From contig JAJYLN010000007.1 of the NCBI GenBank assembly GCA_021787665.1, forward strand, positions 1 to 64,000: DNA of 64,000 nucleotides. The letters are read 5' to 3'. Source of the DNA: a bacterium. Its GTDB lineage: Bacteria; JAMCPX01. Each line of letters starts with the position of its first letter. Position 1 is the stretch's first letter. The translations under genes were made by a program, and so were the position numbers. The notes under the pieces are model-generated. The model had not been told where the DNA came from. It was given only the letters and a program-made list of their open reading frames with translations, and ran no database searches. Shown here in pieces: positions 1,824-9,472 of this stretch.

Positions 1824-3224
1824 TTACACGCAGCAGGAAAGCCCGGAGATGTCCTTGACGAATGAAAGAGCGCAGATCTTGATTGCCTCTGAAAGCGTCG
1901 GGAACACGGGCGTCGAGTTGATCACATCGTCAATGGTGTTTTTGTTCTTGATAAGCACCATTGCCTGTGCGATCAGCTCACCCGCATTCGGCGAGAGGAT
2001 ATGCACACCGAGTATCTGCCCGGTCTTGGGATGAACTGTCATTTTGATCAGCCCTTCTGTCCTGTTCAGGATAAGCGCCTTGGGCATATCCTTGAACGAA
2101 ACGCTCCTGCATGCGCAGGTGCGCATCCTGTTCATCTGCTCCTGTTCGGTAAGCCCCACACCTGCAAGCTGAGGATCCGTGAAGATTGTGTACGGAACGG
2201 TTTCATAATCTATGATGAGATTTGAACCTGTCAGTGCGTTTTCCGCTGCGATACTGCCTTCCCGGCCTGCGGTCGTCTCAAGCCTTGAGGGCTGATTGAT
2301 CACATCACCGACTGCAAACACAGTATCAATGCCTGTTTTGAGATATTTATTAACGACAATCGCACGACGCCTGTCTGTTTCAATACCTGCTTTATCAAGT
2401 TCAAGATCGATTGTGTTCGGTGTTTTGCCGGTTGCAAGAAGTATCTCATCCCCGCTGACCTCGTATGCTTTTTTATCAACAAAATAGGTCAAGAACTTCC
2501 GGCTTCCTTTTTTATAAGCCTTTTTAACCATTGCCCCTGTTTTTATGGTGATACCTTCTTCTGAAAGCACTGATTCAAGCCTGTTGACAACCTCTTCTTC
2601 GCCTTGCTGGAATATGGATGGCTGAAACTCGAGGACCGTGACCGTTGAGCCGAAGCGGGCATACATCTGTGCAAACTCGAGTCCGAGCGGACCTGCACCA
2701 ACGACAATCAATTCCTTGGGCAATTTCTTGAGTTTCAATGCCTCTGTGTGCGTAATAAACCCTGCTTCTTGGATACCTTCAATTGGCGGAACACTTGCCG
2801 TTGAGCCGGTTGCGATAATGATCTTCTTTGCCCGGTAGGTTTTGCCGCCTACATTGACCTTGTCTCTTGATACAAACGATGCCCTGCCCTGGACAAAGGT
2901 TACGTAGTCGAGACGCTTCAACACCTTTTCATACTTCTCTTTCTGCATGATCTGCACCAGACCAATCTCATGATCCATGACCTTCTTGAAATCAAAGGAT
3001 TTGACGCCGAGCTCAATTCCCGGAATGTGGTTGTGCTGCGCAAGATGCAGCATCTCGCCGGCATGAAGAAGGATCTTTGAAGGCACGCATCCTACATTGA
3101 CACACGTTCCGCCGAGCGGTAGTCCATCATTTATCATGAGTGTCTTTGCCTTAAGTTCATTCGCCCGAATCGCCGCAGCAAACCCGCCCGCACCTGCACC
3201 TATGATAATCAAATTGTATTCCAT
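1824..3224 (-). CDS. merA: mercuric reductase MerA
   Basis: Cytoplasmic FAD/NADPH flavoprotein that reduces Hg(II) to volatile Hg(0). The 466-residue protein starts with the FAD-binding GAGAGGFAAAIR and has the redox motif GGTCVNVGCVPSK (Cys41, Cys46), an NADPH-binding GAGPLGLEFA (about 177-186), a second FAD segment ATGKTPN..., and the C-terminal vicinal pair Cys464-Cys465 (SCCV). That pair separates MerA from dihydrolipoamide dehydrogenase. The N-terminal heavy-metal-associated domain of Tn21/Tn501 MerA is absent, which is common in shorter MerA proteins. GGAG lies 8 nt before the ATG. It is the last gene of merR-merT-merP-merA, separated from merP by a strong hairpin. Confidence 0.95.
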   Translation of the reverse strand: MEYNLIIIGAGAGGFAAAIRANELKAKTLMINDGLPLGGTCVNVGCVPSKILLHAGEMLHLAQHNHIPGIELGVKSFDFKKVMDHEIGLVQIMQKEKYEKVLKRLDYVTFVQGRASFVSRDKVNVGGKTYRAKKIIIATGSTASVPPIEGIQEAGFITHTEALKLKKLPKELIVVGAGPLGLEFAQMYARFGSTVTVLEFQPSIFQQGEEEVVNRLESVLSEEGITIKTGAMVKKAYKKGSRKFLTYFVDKKAYEVSGDEILLATGKTPNTIDLELDKAGIETDRRRAIVVNKYLKTGIDTVFAVGDVINQPSRLETTAGREGSIAAENALTGSNLIIDYETVPYTIFTDPQLAGVGLTEQEQMNRMRTCACRSVSFKDMPKALILNRTEGLIKMTVHPKTGQILGVHILSPNAGELIAQAMVLIKNKNTIDDVINSTPVFPTLSEAIKICALSFVKDISGLSCCV

Positions 3225-3246
3225 GTGTTTTCTCCTTTTTAAGAGC

Positions 3247-3273
3247 GGGCAGCACCTTTATACGGTGCTGCCC
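3247..3273 (-). promoter_or_regulatory. 10-bp perfect hairpin in the merP-merA spacer
   Basis: GGGCAGCACC (3247-3256 on the plus strand) is complementary to GGTGCTGCCC (3264-3273) around a 7-nt loop. It lies between the merP stop and the merA ribosome-binding site in the operon mRNA. No T-run follows, so it is unlikely to terminate fully. It may set the ratio of merTP to merA message by attenuating transcription or by stabilising a processed end. Confidence 0.6.
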
Positions 3274-3290
3274 CATTCATCTAACCATAA

Positions 3291-3614
3291 TCAATTTTTT
3301 ATGTGTTCTTCTCCAACCACCCGTGCCTTGTATTCGTGGCCGGCGGATTTGCTGGCTGTGTGTATCGCATCCAGTAGAGAAGTTTCTTTTACCCCGTCTT
3401 TGGTCACAACAACTGCAATCTTGTTCTCTAACGACGTAAATACCCACTCTGTACCCGGTACTTCTGAGATGGATTTTTTTATGGCTGCGGGACACATATC
3501 ACAAACCATGCCCTTTACATTGATTACATAAAGGGTATCTGCGAAAGAGGGACGTGCAAACCCTACCCCCACACAGACAAGCGCTAACAGTGTTCCCAGT
3601 AACATCTTCTTCAT
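3291..3614 (-). CDS. merP: periplasmic mercury-binding protein MerP-like
   Basis: A secreted metallochaperone that scavenges Hg(II) and passes it to MerT. The 107-residue protein has a signal peptide (basic MKK, hydrophobic LLGTLLALVCVGVGFA, cleavage near SFA-D about residue 25) followed by one heavy-metal-associated domain with GMVCDMC (Cys38, Cys41). The start is the ATG at 3614, 8 nt after AGGAGG; an in-frame GTG three codons earlier would overlap that site. It lies 13 nt after merT. The metal motif has Val where Thr is usual (GMTC), a mild variation. Confidence 0.88.
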   Translation of the reverse strand: MKKMLLGTLLALVCVGVGFARPSFADTLYVINVKGMVCDMCPAAIKKSISEVPGTEWVFTSLENKIAVVVTKDGVKETSLLDAIHTASKSAGHEYKARVVGEEHIKN

Positions 3615-3627
3615 TTCTGTCACCTCC

Positions 3628-4050
3628 TTATTGAAATATTTTTGAAAGCACCAATGGATACAATGTTGCTCCTATTAAAAGGACAAATGAAAACCATGTT
3701 ATCCCGATACTAAAGCGCCTGGCCCGTACAGACTCATTGCACGCGCATGTGATTACAGGCTTTTTGAGTATCTTTTTAATCCGGTCCTTAATATCGTAGA
3801 GCTTGTAAAGAGAAAAGCCTATAGACAGGTAACCTATACCCAGAAACAGCCATCGGTAAGGCTCAAATATACTGCCTATAGAGCCTATGGTGCCGAATGA
3901 TGTCCCGAAGATAACAAAAACAGCAGGTCCTATACAGCAGGAGCCGGCAATAAAAGCACTCACTACGCCAATTAAACTGCTCATGTTCTCTTTTTTTCTG
4001 GAAATTTGATTGCCATGAAACAGGTCTCCGTTAAATATTGTATATTTCAT
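3628..4050 (-). CDS. merT: mercuric ion transporter MerT
   Basis: Inner-membrane protein that moves Hg(II) into the cytoplasm for MerA. It has about three hydrophobic segments. The first carries the vicinal pair in GSCCIGPAVF, and a cytoplasmic loop carries a second pair (TCAC), as in MerT of Tn501. The start at 4050 is preceded by AAAGGA at good spacing and gives 140 residues. The more classical 118-residue protein would start at the ATG at 3984, whose Shine-Dalgarno is weaker. It follows merR closely, and the coding spaces would overlap if more upstream starts were used. Confidence 0.9.
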   Translation of the reverse strand: MKYTIFNGDLFHGNQISRKKENMSSLIGVVSAFIAGSCCIGPAVFVIFGTSFGTIGSIGSIFEPYRWLFLGIGYLSIGFSLYKLYDIKDRIKKILKKPVITCACNESVRARRFSIGITWFSFVLLIGATLYPLVLSKIFQ

Positions 4051-4084
4051 TTCTGTATCCTTTTCATATAATAATCCTGCTTCA

Positions 4085-4492
4085 TTACTCATCACCCTCC
4101 ATTGCTTCAAGAATGGGGCATTCGCTCACAGGCCGCTTTCCCCTGCATGTCATGGTTAATTTTGTCAGTGCCTTTCTCATCCTCTGGAGAGTACGCACCT
4201 TCGTCTCGATGTCATGTATCTTTGCTTCAGCCCTTTCACGGACATGTTCACAAGCGTTTCCTGGCTCAAGCCGGAGATCGAGGAGCTCTTTGATTTCTTT
4301 CAAGGTGAAACCGAGATCCTTGGCACGCCTGACGAAACGAAGGCGCTGAATTGTCTCATGGGGGTATTCTCGATAACCTGATTCGCGACGTTTCGGCTCA
4401 TCGATCAGCCCCTCCCTTTCATAAAAACGGATTGTCTCGACCCCGACCTCTGCAAGCCGGGCAACCTTTCCGATTGTCAGTGATTCCATCAT
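4085..4492 (-). CDS. merR: mercury-responsive regulator MerR
   Basis: Dimeric MerR-family activator/repressor. An N-terminal winged helix (LTIGKVARLAEVGVETIRFYE) is followed by a long dimerisation helix and a metal-binding loop. The three Hg(II) ligands are present: Cys81 (NACEHV), Cys116 (MTCRG) and Cys125 (SECPIL), matching Cys82/117/126 of Tn501 MerR. Two adjacent Met codons are possible starts; AGGAGG spacing favours the second, at 4489. merR is the first gene of the operon and is codirectional with merTPA, not divergent as in Tn21. It therefore controls its own transcription from the promoter at 4517-4547. Confidence 0.95.
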   Translation of the reverse strand: MMESLTIGKVARLAEVGVETIRFYEREGLIDEPKRRESGYREYPHETIQRLRFVRRAKDLGFTLKEIKELLDLRLEPGNACEHVRERAEAKIHDIETKVRTLQRMRKALTKLTMTCRGKRPVSECPILEAMEGDE

Positions 4493-4560: not shown

Positions 4561-4686
4561 GACGAAAACGGGGTCAGGTCTACACATTTGACAGGAGCAT
4601 TTAACTGATGTAAGGAGGGTGCAGACGAAAACGGGGTCAGGTCTACACATTTGACAGGAGCATTTAACTGATGTAAGGAGGGTGCA
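4561..4686 (+). repeat. tandem duplication of the 63-bp RAYT-1 upstream unit
   Basis: A 63-bp unit starting GACGAAAACGGGGTCAGGTC and ending GGAGGGTGCA occurs twice head to tail (4561-4623 and 4624-4686). It directly precedes the ATG of a RAYT gene at 4689. A third copy, with two mismatches, precedes the full-length RAYT at 8682-8744. The core GGGGTCAGGTCTACACATTTGACA resembles the terminal repeat of the other element here (GGTGTCAGGTCTTGACATGTGACA). It is probably the end sequence recognised by the transposase; it also supplies the ribosome-binding site. Confidence 0.85.
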
Positions 4687-4688
4687 TT

Positions 4689-4978
4689 ATGGCACGACCC
4701 TTAAGAATATTGTATGCCGGTGCATTCTATCATGTGACCGCACGGGGGAATGAAAAGAAGACCATATTCAAGCATGATGCGGACTACGAGAAGTTTTTAT
4801 CATACATGGAAGCAGTTGTTGAAAGATATGGAGCGGTCATCCATGCATATTGTCTGATGGATAACCACTATCATGTAGTAATCCAGACGCCACGGGCAAA
4901 CCTCTCAGAAGTCATGAAGTACCTCAACGGTTCCTATACGACCTACATAAACACGAAACGACAAAGGGTAATGGGAAT
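4689..4978 (+). pseudogene. RAYT-1 (REP-associated tyrosine transposase) truncated copy
   Basis: The first ~96 codons match the complete copy at 8747 with only a few differences. The N-terminal Y1 domain is intact up to the HUH motif (DNHYHVV), but the frame is interrupted after Lys-Arg-Gln-Arg-Val by the left end of another element at 4979. The residual open frame continues to 4997 with codons from the inserted element. The catalytic Tyr (RYVHMNPV in the complete copy) is missing, so the product cannot cleave DNA. The remainder of the gene is not found after the insert, so a deletion accompanied or followed the insertion. Confidence 0.85.
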
Positions 4979-5642
4979 AATGGGTGTCAGGTCTTGACAT
5001 GTGACATAAGAGCAGTTTTGCGGTAGTATAGTTTTATGGGACGGCCATTAATAATAGAATATCCTGGAGCCTTGTATCATGTCATGAGCAGAGGCAATGA
5101 GCGAGGCAAGATATTTTATGATACAGCGGATAGATTAAACTATCTGTCACTCCTCAAAGATTATCATGAGCGCTATGGTATTCTGATCCACAGCTTTGTC
5201 CTGATGAATAATCATTATCACCTCATTATTGAGACACCAAAAGCCAATCTTTTAATAGTGCTTGGCGGGGGACAGTTTATTGAACAAATCAAGAATATGG
5301 TGAAGGGAAAGCATCTCAGCGGGGAGATCGTTGGGCGTACGCGGATCCTCAAGCAGGTTCTTCCGGGAGAGATTATCAGGATGGTGGCTGAAAGATACGG
5401 TGTTAACGAGAATTCTATGTATACCAGGGACCTGAGGGAAAATCTTCCCCGGAGGGCTGCAATGTATTTGGTGTACAAATACACCCATCTGAGCAACCGG
5501 GAAGCCGGCAAGCTATTTGGAGGGATACACTACAGTGTATTGCGCAAAGCGTTTGTGCGGTTTGAAGAAGAACTCGCGACAAACAAGAGCCTATCAGACA
5601 TCATTACGGCGTTAGAGTCACATGTCAAGACCTGACACCATT
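4979..5642 (+). mobile_element. RAYT-2 element with 23-bp perfect terminal inverted repeats
   Basis: The left end AATGGGTGTCAGGTCTTGAC (from 4979) is mirrored by GTCACATGTCAAGACCTGAC (from 5617). The arms match over 23 bp and differ only by one missing base in the outermost ATT/CATT. The element contains the transposase gene 5036-5635, whose last six codons are formed by the right repeat. It sits inside the RAYT-1 copy that begins at 4689. A second left end, truncated, lies at 1397. The family (TnpA-REP, Y1/HUH) normally acts on hairpin ends; here the ends are long inverted repeats. Confidence 0.8.
5036..5635 (+). pseudogene. RAYT-2 Y1 transposase with internal deletion
   Basis: 199 codons. 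The N-terminal Y1 domain (PGALYHVMSRGNERG, HUH motif NNHYHLI near residue 60) runs to TPKANL. There it jumps to LIVLGGGQFIEQIK and a C-terminal DnaA-like helix-turn-helix region (AAMYLVYKYTHLSNREAGKLFGG). The segment that should hold the catalytic tyrosine (consensus RY.H.NPV) is absent, although the frame is kept. The protein could still bind DNA but should lack strand cleavage. The C-terminal HTH is typical of a subgroup of these transposases. Reading through the inverted repeat supplies the final residues and stop. Confidence 0.75.
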
Positions 5643-5687: not shown

Positions 5688-5716
5688 TTGACATGCAAGG
5701 GGACATAAACCATAAG
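5688..5716 (+). promoter_or_regulatory. predicted sigma-70 promoter of the NRAMP operon
   Basis: TTGACA at 5688-5693, a 17-bp spacer, then CATAAG at 5711-5716. This would start transcription near 5723 and leave about 160 nt of leader before the transporter ATG. The -35 is a perfect consensus and the -10 matches at four positions. Confidence 0.5.
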
Positions 5717-5725
5717 GTCGTTCAG

Positions 5726-5838
5726 GAAGATCAGATTATCATATCGGGCCTGCTGGCAGCGGTCAGAAACCGCGGGACTTCCGGAGTAAACGAAAAATAT
5801 ATGAATGATACGATATATACTATGAGAGTCTGATCTTC
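5726..5838 (+). promoter_or_regulatory. candidate structured 5' leader (riboswitch-like) of the Mg-transport operon
   Basis: GAAGATCAGA at 5726-5735 is perfectly complementary to TCTGATCTTC at 5829-5838, which closes a domain of about 93 nt. Inside, GCGGT and ACCGC (5759-5763, 5769-5773) form a hairpin with a 5-nt loop, and smaller stems are possible after it. The predicted transcription start lies just upstream. I do not recognise a known class; M-box and yybP-ykoY signatures are not apparent. A cation-responsive leader is an inference from position and pairing only. Confidence 0.4.
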
Positions 5839-5884
5839 TGCGCATGTAGAGGGTTTTGGCTCTCGGAAAAGAAGGGTAGCCGAC

Positions 5885-7156
5885 GTGAATATTTGGGCCA
5901 AGCTATTTTATAAATACAGAAGGGTCTGGAAGACGCTCAAGCTGTACCTGATCCTCGCCGGTCCAGGCATCATCGTGATGGTTGCGGACAATGACGCCGG
6001 CGGCATAACGACCTACACCACGACCGGCGCAAAATACGGCACGCATCTTCTGTGGTTCATGATCGTGCTCGGGCCCGTCGCCTATTACGTGCAGGAGATG
6101 ACCGTACGTCTCGGCGCAGTCACCAAGCGGGGACACGCAGAGGCAATCTTCTCGGGATTCGGCCGTTTCTGGGGATGGTTTTCTCTGCTCGACCTTGTCC
6201 TGACCGATTGGCTCACCATGATCACCGAGTTTATCGGCATGACCGCAGCCCTGAGCATCTTCCATGTCCCCCCGATCGTTACCGTCGTCATCACGTGGGT
6301 GATCATGTGGGCGATGATCCTGAGCGGCAGGTACTGGACGTGGGAAAAGTTCGCGCTGCTGTTCTGCGCGATCAATCTTATCTACATTCCGGCGGCGTTT
6401 ATCGTGCATCCCTCCGTCAGAGACATACTGTTCAACAGCTTCGTCCCGCATTTCCCTCCCGGAGGCTTTACCAACGATTTGTTCTTTATGCTCATGGCGA
6501 ACATCGGTACCACGATCGCCCCCTGGATGCTCTTCTTTCAGCAAAGCTCGGTCGTGGACAAGGGACTCCACGAAAAGGACATCAAATTCGGCAAGTTCGA
6601 CACCGTCATCGGCGCGTTCCTCACGGTCGTCGTGGCAATGGTCCTGATCATAGTCTGCGGCACGCTGCTGCACGGCATACCCATAGACGATGCTGCCGCC
6701 GCAGCACGGCACCTCATGCCGACCAGCAGGGCCATAGGTACTCTGATAGCCATCGGTCTTTTCGATGCCGGCTTCCTCGGCGCGGTCTGCATCTCGCTCG
6801 CAAGCTCGTGGGCGTTCGGGGAGATATTCGGCTGGGCACACTCTCTCAACGACAGGGTGAAAGAGGCGCCGTGGTTCTACGCCTACTATTTCTTCGACCT
6901 CACGCTTGCCGGCGTCGTCGTGCTCATACCGCACGCGCCTCTCGTTCTCATTACGCTTTTCGTTCAGGTCATAGCCACGACCCTGCTCCCTCCAGCCCTC
7001 ATGTTCCTGATCCTGCTGCTGAACGACAAAAAAACCATGGGTGAGTATACCAACACCCGCTGGCAGAACATCGTCAACGTCGGCATCGTCGCGGGCATCA
7101 TCGCCCTGTCGGCCATGTACGGCGTAAGCACCCTGTTCCCAGGACTGTTCCACTAG
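5885..7156 (+). CDS. NRAMP-related divalent cation transporter, probably Mg2+
   Basis: A 423-residue inner-membrane transporter of the NRAMP (MntH/SLC11) fold with about 11 membrane segments. TM1 has DAGG (Asp37-Gly40, within ADNDAGG) where metal-ion NRAMPs have DPGN. TM6 has Ala212-Pro213-Trp214 where they have Met-Pro-His. The Asn and Met ligands that select Mn/Fe are thus gone. Loss of those ligands is known in NRAMP-related magnesium transporters (NRMT). The downstream gene encodes MgtE-type regulatory domains, which supports Mg2+ as the substrate. The start ATG is preceded by GAAGGGTAGCCGACGTG at a moderate site; GTG at 5885 is the chosen codon. First gene of a three-gene operon. Confidence 0.85.
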   Translation: MNIWAKLFYKYRRVWKTLKLYLILAGPGIIVMVADNDAGGITTYTTTGAKYGTHLLWFMIVLGPVAYYVQEMTVRLGAVTKRGHAEAIFSGFGRFWGWFSLLDLVLTDWLTMITEFIGMTAALSIFHVPPIVTVVITWVIMWAMILSGRYWTWEKFALLFCAINLIYIPAAFIVHPSVRDILFNSFVPHFPPGGFTNDLFFMLMANIGTTIAPWMLFFQQSSVVDKGLHEKDIKFGKFDTVIGAFLTVVVAMVLIIVCGTLLHGIPIDDAAAAARHLMPTSRAIGTLIAIGLFDAGFLGAVCISLASSWAFGEIFGWAHSLNDRVKEAPWFYAYYFFDLTLAGVVVLIPHAPLVLITLFVQVIATTLLPPALMFLILLLNDKKTMGEYTNTRWQNIVNVGIVAGIIALSAMYGVSTLFPGLFH

Positions 7157-7168
7157 AGGAGGACAACC

Positions 7169-7345
7169 GTGATAAGGGATTTTTTCAGACGCATCTTCAA
7201 GAAGATACACGAGATCAACCAGGAATATAAGACGCCGGGCATACGGATGTCCATCTGGGTAAAATTTTCGCTGCTGATGCTGAGGTTATATCTTTTTACG
7301 ATGATAGGCCTGTTGCTGTATAAGTTCATCAGCCAGCTGAAATAA
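7169..7345 (+). CDS. 58-residue single-pass membrane protein
   Basis: A GTG start at 7169 lies 6 nt after AGGAGG, and the frame ends with TAA at 7345, 11 nt before the next gene. The N-terminal half is basic and amphipathic (FFRRIFKKIHEINQEYK). The C-terminal half is one hydrophobic helix (LMLRLYLFTMIGLLLYKFI). The strong ribosome-binding site and tight packing between the transporter and the MgtE-like gene argue for a real gene. A small accessory subunit or stabiliser of the transporter is an inference; I know no family match. Confidence 0.7.
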   Translation: MIRDFFRRIFKKIHEINQEYKTPGIRMSIWVKFSLLMLRLYLFTMIGLLLYKFISQLK

Positions 7346-7356
7346 AGGAAAATACC

Positions 7357-8679
7357 ATGAACAATGCAGAAGAGCACAAACATGAATCGACCAGAGAGAT
7401 TTCATATTCCTCCGGTAAAGGAGACAGGGGCGTCTATTCCCTGAGTGACATCATTAAGTCGCCCGTTTTCGCCCCCGTCCTCTCTTCAAAGAAGATCGGC
7501 AGGCTCATCGACCTGATTATCGTGGATAAAGACAAGTTCGCAGAGGTAACGTATCTCGTTGTCGGTCGCCCCTTCGGTGACCCGTCCCTGATCGTGCCAT
7601 GGGAGAAGGTTCAATCCCTTACGCCGGGCAGGATCGTCATTACCATCGAACATATCAATACCTATGCCGTGGAGCCGCCTATGAGCGCGGTATTGTTAAA
7701 GGACTATATCCTCGACAAAAAGGTACTGGACAGCAAGGGCAGGGAGGTAGAAGTTGTTTACGACGTCAAGCTGGTGCTCGGGAACAATAGGCTATATATA
7801 ACCGAGGTCGATCTGAGCAAGAGCGGCATGCTCCGGAGGATTGGCCTCAAATGGCTTGCAAATTTTATCAATACCCTTGCCTCCAGCATCGTGAAGCAGA
7901 AGGTCGCGTGGAGCTATGTAGAGCCCCTCCCGGAAAAGATCGGCAGCTTCAAAGGCGACCTTACGTTGAAGGTCCTGAAAGAGCAACTTTCCGAAATACC
8001 CCCGGTAGATCTCGCCGATATACTCGAGGAGCTCGATCCGGAACAGAGGATGGCGCTGTTCGGGCAGTTGGACATCGATCACGCGTCCGACACCCTCGAA
8101 GAGATCGACCCCAATATCCAGAGGGACATGATCGCGGCACTGAACAAGCAAAGGGCCGCCCAGCTCATCAACGAGATGACCCCTGGTCAGGCGGCGGACC
8201 TTCTTTCCGTGCTCCCGTGGTGGGAAGTGGAGGCGATCCTGAAGCTGCTCAACAGGGAAAACGCCGTCAAGATCATGGACATCCTCAAGAAGCAGGAAGA
8301 GAAGATAGCCAATTTCGCGGTTTCTAACTTTTTACGGTTCCCGCCCGGAAAAACTGCGCTGCAGACACGCAGGGCGTTCCAGCGCGAGGCGAAGGGCAAG
8401 GTAGCGATCATGTATCTTTATATCGTGGACGATCTGGGAAAGCTGCTGGGGGTCATAGATATCAAGGAGCTGTTGATGGCAGACGACGAGGCTCTGCTGA
8501 AGGACATCATGACGACCAATGTCATAAGTCTGAATCCAGACAACACGCTCAAGGAGGCATGGGAGATGTTCAAACGATATGGCTTCCGTGCACTGCCCCT
8601 TATCAACGGAGACGGAAAGATGCAGGGCGTCATACCCCAGCGAGACGTGATGAACCTCACCCATAGGTTCGTGGAATGA
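7357..8679 (+). CDS. PRC-barrel / MgtE-N / CBS-domain protein, putative Mg2+ sensor of the transporter
   Basis: A 440-residue soluble protein. Residues ~25-95 form a PRC-barrel (SPVFAPVLSSKKIGRLIDLI, then VPWEKVQSL), and a second similar half lies at ~105-160. Residues ~205-310 are the superhelical MgtE N domain (PPVDLADILEELDPEQR, LNKQRAAQLINEM). Residues ~340-435 are a CBS pair (IMTTNVISLNPDNTLKEAW, then FRALPLINGDGKMQGVIPQRD). In MgtE the N and CBS domains bind Mg2+ and gate the pore; here they have no MgtE membrane domain. Its place beside an NRAMP-type transporter suggests that it gates or senses for it. Its stop lies 2 nt before an inserted RAYT unit. Confidence 0.85.
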   Translation: MNNAEEHKHESTREISYSSGKGDRGVYSLSDIIKSPVFAPVLSSKKIGRLIDLIIVDKDKFAEVTYLVVGRPFGDPSLIVPWEKVQSLTPGRIVITIEHINTYAVEPPMSAVLLKDYILDKKVLDSKGREVEVVYDVKLVLGNNRLYITEVDLSKSGMLRRIGLKWLANFINTLASSIVKQKVAWSYVEPLPEKIGSFKGDLTLKVLKEQLSEIPPVDLADILEELDPEQRMALFGQLDIDHASDTLEEIDPNIQRDMIAALNKQRAAQLINEMTPGQAADLLSVLPWWEVEAILKLLNRENAVKIMDILKKQEEKIANFAVSNFLRFPPGKTALQTRRAFQREAKGKVAIMYLYIVDDLGKLLGVIDIKELLMADDEALLKDIMTTNVISLNPDNTLKEAWEMFKRYGFRALPLINGDGKMQGVIPQRDVMNLTHRFVE

Positions 8680-8681
8680 CG

Positions 8682-8744
8682 GACGAAAACGGGGTCAGGT
8701 CTACACATTTGACAGGAGCATTTAACTGATGTTAGGAGAGTGCA
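8682..8744 (+). repeat. 63-bp RAYT-1 upstream unit (third copy)
   Basis: It matches the tandem units at 4561-4686 with two changes (GTTAGGAGAG instead of GTAAGGAGGG). It starts 2 nt after the stop of the MgtE-like gene and ends directly before the RAYT start at 8747. Confidence 0.85.
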
Positions 8745-8746
8745 TT

Positions 8747-9472
8747 ATGGCACGACCCTTAAGAATATTGTATGCCGGTGCATTCTATCATGTGACCGCA
8801 CGGGGGAATGAAAAGAAGACCATATTCAAGCATGATGCTGACTACGAGAGGTTTTTATCATACATGGAAGCAGTTGTTGAAAGATATGGAGCGGTCATCC
8901 ATGCATATTGTCTGATGGATAACCACTATCATGTAGTAATCCAGACGCCACGGGCAAACCTCTCAGAAGTTATGCAGTACCTCAACGGTTCCTATACGAC
9001 CTACATAAACACGAAACGACAAAGGGTCGGCCACCTGTTGCAGGGACGATATAAGGCAATTCTGATAGACGCGGATGCGTATGCCATGGAGGTGTCCCGA
9101 TATGTTCATATGAATCCAGTGCGGGCCGGGATGGTGAGCAAGCCCGCGGAGTACCCATGGTCAAGCTATCAATACTACATCGGCAAGAAAAAAGTCCCGA
9201 CATGGCTGACCATGAATATTATTCTCGACTATTTTGATGAACGAACCTCCGAGGGACAACGGAAGTACCGAGAATTTATAGAAGAAAAGATAGGGCAGGG
9301 GTATGATAATCCCTTAAAGGGTGCAGTTGGGTCGAGCATTCTTGGCGCAGAGGAATTTATACGAAGGATAAAGAAGCAGTATTTACAACGGAGGGTTATA
9401 GATGGAAAGTTGGGCGTAGAAGATGCGGGGAAGATCTTGAAGAGGTCTGTCCGGCAGGGTGGTAAACCCTAA
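8747..9472 (+). CDS. REP-associated tyrosine transposase (RAYT-1), full length
   Basis: A 241-residue single-strand DNA transposase/nuclease of the Y1 (IS200/TnpA-REP) family. The conserved start RILYAGAFYHVTARGN is followed by the HUH motif His60-Tyr-His62 (DNHYHVVI), the GHLLQGRYKAIL block, and the catalytic tyrosine region RYVHMNPVRAG (Tyr119). A C-terminal extension continues to residue 241. All catalytic residues are present, so it could act on the broken copies nearby. The start at ATG 8747 is chosen because it matches the other copy and follows GGAG; an upstream ATG at 8729 lies inside the repeat unit. No inverted copy of the 5' unit is seen after the stop. Confidence 0.88.
   Translation: MARPLRILYAGAFYHVTARGNEKKTIFKHDADYERFLSYMEAVVERYGAVIHAYCLMDNHYHVVIQTPRANLSEVMQYLNGSYTTYINTKRQRVGHLLQGRYKAILIDADAYAMEVSRYVHMNPVRAGMVSKPAEYPWSSYQYYIGKKKVPTWLTMNIILDYFDERTSEGQRKYREFIEEKIGQGYDNPLKGAVGSSILGAEEFIRRIKKQYLQRRVIDGKLGVEDAGKILKRSVRQGGKP

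Follow-up and report, generated by a model that had tools for sequence, protein, structure and literature searches.

What does the leader of a predicted metal-transporter operon sense, and which part of it is the sensor? In the window, the stretch of 64,000 nucleotides analysed here, such a leader contains two distant segments that are perfectly complementary. The first-pass annotation had proposed that the helix between them closes a new class of cation-responsive RNA. A cation-responsive leader before a Mg/Mn-type transporter operon was well supported by our analysis. The RNA is not a new class, however, since a divergent NiCo (czcD) aptamer forms its sensing domain. With a probability of roughly 0.78, we consider the leader of this NRMT/MgtE_N operon to be a transition-metal riboswitch with that aptamer as the sensor.

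Operon, promoter and neighbourhood

The operon is predicted from its sequence to encode an NRMT-type transporter (Mg2+/Mn2+) and a PRC–MgtE_N–CBS protein. Its genes and start signals were as follows.

5688–5716, + strand: probable promoter (TTGACA at 5688–5693, 17 nt, CATAAG at 5711–5716), by sequence reading
5870–5876, + strand: Shine-Dalgarno (SD)-like AGAAGGG, 8 nt 5' of the GTG start, by sequence reading
5885–7156, + strand: NRMT-type Nramp-related transporter, 423 aa (Pfam Nramp, 1.8e-75)
7169–7345, + strand: small ORF, 58 aa, probably with one membrane span (sequence)
7357–8679, + strand: PRC-barrel–MgtE_N–CBS protein, 440 aa, NRMT partner (Pfam; NCBIfam mgtE partial)

The GTG start at 5885 agrees with the MNI... 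starts of homologs. Among PDB entries, the product of the first gene matched EleNRMT best (7qia, E = 2.9e-65), an Nramp-related Mg2+ transporter. The two proteins share the DxxG/TxxA site motif, which occurs in the window protein as DAGG in TM1 and TTIA in TM6. Its segments NDAGG and GTTIAPW align to EleNRMT, and both the NRMT ion-site motif (DxxG in TM1, TxxA/T in TM6; PMC8806188) and the closest relation to an NRMT were thus found. Operons of NRMT and MgtE_N genes are known, some with an M-box upstream, and in Acidobacterium capsulatum an NrmT acts like a Mn2+ importer (PMC4072509).

The predicted transcription start (approximately 5723) coincides with the 5' edge of the aptamer described below. 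What had been called a good promoter is only fair overall: the −35 element is a perfect match to TTGACA, but the −10 element CATAAG is poor, with four of six consensus positions. Due to this −10 element, 5688–5716 was not accepted in a promoter scan.

RAYT (Y1/REP-type transposase) genes flank the operon (window 4624–4969, 4975–5642 and 8682–9472). Positions 4624–4969 are a 98% copy of 8682–9027, interrupted by a second RAYT element that is bounded by an inverted repeat (4979–5005/5617–5642), and the promoter of the leader begins about 45 nt downstream of this second element. A Y1 transposase-like ORF with a C-terminal DnaA C-terminal domain (Bac_DnaA_C) was located at 5036–5635, and 1392–1537 repeats 4975–5119 at 99%. 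A mercury-resistance-like operon on the minus strand (1824–4492; MerR-family regulator, MerT-like, MerP/CopZ-like and MerA genes) adjoins the NRMT operon.

A divergent NiCo-type aptamer

At the gathering threshold, an Rfam scan of the window returned zero matches, and the Rfam scans gave no match to the M-box or to yybP-ykoY, in line with the earlier statement that known Mg and Mn signatures are not seen. In E-value mode, the NiCo family (RF02683) matched at 5717–5782 with 28.7 bits; with all families searched, E was 1.2e-4 for a 261-nt query and 8e-5 for the 185-nt leader. This score does not reach the gathering cut-off of 37 bits, a value that curators set for automatic annotation; in a Bacillota-like group, many NiCo sites before efflux pumps score 30–37 bits.

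An independent model (R1) was built from 30 aligned NiCo RNAs of other genomes, with the window left out. Its four-helix structure is marked by changes on both sides in 19 of 25 pairs. Over the 64-kb window, the leader element was the sole match of R1 (28.1 bits, E = 1.1e-6), and R1 scored at most 15.7 bits in 100 control loci, nearly all of which had been picked for carrying the string CGGGC..GGCAG..GCGGGAC in order. The string itself was rejected as a NiCo marker because it was not specific. The best reported match in nine related genomes (22.6 bits) lay apparently within coding sequence, and matches of 21–22.6 bits in genome G001 were likewise discarded as NiCo aptamers since they appear to sit in coding sequence. 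By these scores, the homology of the leader to the NiCo aptamer is statistically secure, and we hold it to be nearly certain.

5723–5782, + strand: NiCo-type aptamer (Rfam RF02683, R1, free fold)
5725–5729/5778–5782, + strand: aptamer helix P1
5734–5736/5743–5745, + strand: aptamer helix P2
5748–5750/5755–5757, + strand: aptamer helix P3
5759–5763/5769–5773, + strand: aptamer helix P4
5746–5748, + strand: GGG of CGGGC, invariant in the 30 NiCo RNAs
5774–5778, + strand: GGGAC, invariant in the 30 NiCo RNAs

An unconstrained fold of 5723–5800 gave the NiCo four-helix structure, and P1–P4 all form, also in the model alignment. The window aptamer keeps 14 of the 16 invariant NiCo positions, the other two being one compensated P2 pair (C-G to U-A). 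P1 (GGAAG/CUUCC), P2 (GAU/AUC) and P4 depart from the consensus by paired changes; the junctions GA.CAG, CGGGC, GGCAGC and GCGGGAC are unchanged. P2, with three pairs and a 6-nt loop, is shorter than in the 30 aligned RNAs. In the NiCo crystal structure, G45–G47 and G87/G88 are guanines contacting Co2+ (PMC7689651). If the numbering corresponds as we infer from the alignment, 5746–5748 would be the counterpart of G45–G47, and GGGAC at 5774–5778 (GGG at 5774–5776) would hold the counterparts of G87/G88.

Competing folds of the leader

Downstream of the aptamer, two further elements were found that share a strand.

5726–5743, + strand: 5' arm of helix B, overlapping the P1 and P2 strands (repeat search, shuffles)
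5821–5838, + strand: 3' arm of helix B, overlapping the 5' half of hairpin T (repeat search, shuffles, folding)
5824–5864, + strand: hairpin T (5824–5841 with 5846–5864), −23.1 kcal/mol (folding, shuffles)

The originally noticed 10-bp helix was present exactly as described, with perfect complementarity between GAAGATCAGA (5726–5735) and TCTGATCTTC (5829–5838), and it is longer. The repeat search extended it to 18-nt arms with 17 pairs (5726–5743 with 5821–5838; 89% complementary). This helix B is composed of 12 unbroken pairs including one G-U, one mismatch and five further pairs; the unbroken run is 13 if the G5725–U5839 wobble is counted. The duplex energy of the aptamer with the downstream sequence was uninformative and was replaced by an ungapped helix score. 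This score was 15 for the aptamer region versus the downstream leader. When the downstream leader was shuffled with its dinucleotide content kept, 3 of 6000 sequences matched or exceeded it, and an unbroken helix of at least 13 was seen in 16 of 3000 shuffles. The helix is therefore rarer than the chance rate of about 1 in 100 first given for it. The fold of 5726–5838 (113 nt) had a z of −3.5. The stability of hairpin T was equalled by 3 of 5000 shuffles; directly 3' of the hairpin lies GGAAAAGAAGGG, without a U-run.

Folding energies were computed at 37 °C with no metal term. In a growing-chain calculation, the aptamer made up 97–100% of the ensemble up to 5806 and 30% at 5830, and helix B was favoured by 10–15 kcal/mol at 5836–5848. 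When the aptamer was held, the probability of hairpin T was near 1. For the RNA to 5960, hairpin T was also favoured in the free model, which is a warning on thermodynamics. Since the two arms of helix B are taken from the aptamer 5' strand and from the first half of hairpin T, it excludes both, and the models indicate two mutually exclusive states: aptamer plus hairpin T, or helix B. Helix B had been thought to close the sensing domain; in these models it is instead a competitor of the aptamer, the ligand-free helix of the expression platform, and not the sensor.

Access to the SD-like sequence showed no consistent difference between the aptamer and helix-B states across the computed lengths. 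In the 5900 model, the sequence was a little more accessible with the aptamer formed (0.80 versus 0.59), and this small difference was mostly reversed in longer models. An anti-SD pairing (5832–5839 with 5870–5877) was rejected: the segments are complementary, but in either state all of that stretch is already paired.

The leader element is known from one genome, which leaves no conservation to draw on and would suit a chance complementarity beside a chance motif match, with no regulatory RNA at all. We regard such a coincidence as very improbable, given the E-value of R1 over the window, the position expected for a metal riboswitch, and p < 0.001 for helix B and hairpin T each. A new cation-responsive class, unrelated to known riboswitches and closed by the 10-bp helix, would agree with the significance of the helix and with the missing Rfam match above the gathering score. 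It is scarcely credible, as the NiCo match covers the helix 5' arm and the interior and was confirmed by an independent model, and as helix and aptamer cannot coexist. Alternatively, the aptamer might be a true homolog that arrived together with the mobile RAYT elements, or close to them, and has lost metal sensing. The score under the Rfam cut-off, the very short P2, the lack of the aptamer in any homologous operon examined and the RAYT copies on both sides could all be read in this way. Decay would be expected to remove junction residues first or equally, whereas the junction and metal-contact positions are all kept and the helix changes are compensated; helix B and hairpin T, each improbable by chance, also have one strand in common. 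We consider decay improbable, and a working metal switch, putative as it is, likely.

Comparison with known metalloriboswitches and proposed regulation

The NiCo (czcD) class is known for Ni2+, Co2+ and Fe2+, not for Mg2+. Like its members, the window aptamer has four helices around GA.CAG, CGGGC, GGCAGC and GCGGGAC and lies just upstream of a metal-transport gene. We compared it with 106 other NiCo sites that are followed by an ORF. The downstream genes were Cation_efflux (77/106) or P-type (E1-E2) ATPase (26/106), so that 103 of the 106 sites precede CDF or P-type ATPase pumps; none precedes an Nramp gene. The window aptamer, in contrast, lies before the Nramp-related NRMT gene and not before the efflux gene typical of the class. 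At 99 of the other sites, the downstream complement was better to the aptamer 3' strand, and a U-rich tail often came after it (75/106). A 5'-strand complement score of at least 12 occurred at none of them (maximum 11), whereas the window complement had a score of 15 for the 5' strand and 6.5 for the 3' strand. The usual platform, a terminator formed from the aptamer 3' strand with metal turning the gene on, is absent from the window leader, where the platform pairs the 5' strand and has no U-run terminator. Because of the Rfam cut-off, the lack of an efflux gene and this platform, the leader contains a divergent NiCo-type aptamer and is not a standard NiCo riboswitch; the three-pair P2 and the U-A in place of an invariant C-G are further differences.

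With the M-box (RF00380), the locus shares the kind of operon, NRMT with an MgtE_N partner (PMC4072509; four homologs here), and a three-part layout of aptamer, anti-hairpin strand and hairpin. The proposed coupling is also alike: the M-box ligand hides a strand that otherwise prevents a hairpin (PMC4072509). Unlike in those homologs, M-box sequence and structure are absent from the window leader; the covariance-model search that found M-boxes before the four homologs (L088, L100, L118 and L137) gave no M-box match in the window. The yybP-ykoY (Mn2+) riboswitch is similarly a metal-sensing RNA at metal-transport genes.

Among the other homologous Nramp loci that were scanned directly with R1, none had a NiCo aptamer ahead of the gene. 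Whole-genome scans with RF02683 and R1 use a pre-filter that also passed over the window element, and absences in these scans are soft, unlike those at the directly scanned loci. Within the same genus (G001), locus L404 (3073–3861) carries an NRMT gene without the first ~170 codons and the leader, and unrelated sequence lies directly before the shortened gene. Nitrospirae relatives of the operon have a different conserved leader element with a strong SD and a short ORF, MDGGPSS... (L059 4775, L060 4784, L064 4321, and two copies in L061 at 1979 and 792). In several copies, a complement further downstream closes the element, e.g., ATGGAC...GTCCATTGCTCACCTC. An Rfam search gave no match for this element, which may encode a leader peptide or be an RNA of a kind not yet described. 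About two kilobases past the NRMT gene in L059, a cobalamin riboswitch (8157–8351, 115.7 bits) was found shortly upstream of a CbiM-like gene.

In the proposed mechanism, 5723–5782 of the emerging RNA would fold into the four-helix aptamer. With no metal and the transcript extended to about 5836, 5821–5838 is computed to invade and pair with 5726–5743, and the formation of helix B would destroy the aptamer and consume the 5' half of hairpin T. By analogy with the NiCo class, Ni2+, Co2+ or Fe2+ would hold the aptamer, leaving 5821–5838 free for hairpin T to form, according to the folding calculations. Hairpin T may end transcription, pause the polymerase or hinder the ribosome. Plentiful metal would most likely lower importer expression, because the logic is M-box-like, with the ligand sequestering the strand that blocks a downstream hairpin. 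This output step is weak because hairpin T has no U-run and SD access is inconsistent between the states. Metal binding by the leader, regulation and its direction are thus predicted, and OFF with metal is the direction we somewhat favour.

The same aptamer could instead act as an ON switch. Metal would then keep the aptamer, hairpin T would isolate the ribosome site or do no harm in some other way, and helix B would repress; the operon would supply Mg2+/Mn2+ under an excess of Co2+, Ni2+ or Fe2+. In the literature, NiCo switches activate their genes (PMC7689651), and the missing U-run after hairpin T and the more open SD in the 5900 model are also consistent with this. The SD difference was small and mostly reversed in longer models, however, and the gene is importer-like. 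Moreover, the window complement is on the 5' strand, versus the 3' strand in 99 of 106 sites, and this arrangement yields the opposite coupling; a platform of a different type argues for the opposite output. We therefore regard an ON switch as rather unlikely. Returning to the OFF direction, we see about even odds for a fuller account, in which a Mg2+/Mn2+-type importer operon took over a NiCo-class aptamer that gained a new 5'-strand platform and became the first importer-linked OFF member of the class, replacing the M-box of related operons.

The natural ligand of NiCo/czcD RNAs is disputed between Ni2+/Co2+ and Fe2+ (PMC7689651, PMC9294342), because the known genes are broad efflux pumps. 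The window site is the first NiCo site in our survey ahead of an import gene rather than an export pump. An NRMT importer under a NiCo aptamer would offer an independent physiological handle on the ligand, as the cargo of the importer and the metal that shuts or opens it would constrain what the RNA senses. If the proposed reading is true, the same operon has swapped between two metalloriboswitch classes, M-box and NiCo, and an aptamer known from ON switches was apparently rewired through a different expression platform. The leader may thereby stop uptake when the transition metal is abundant.
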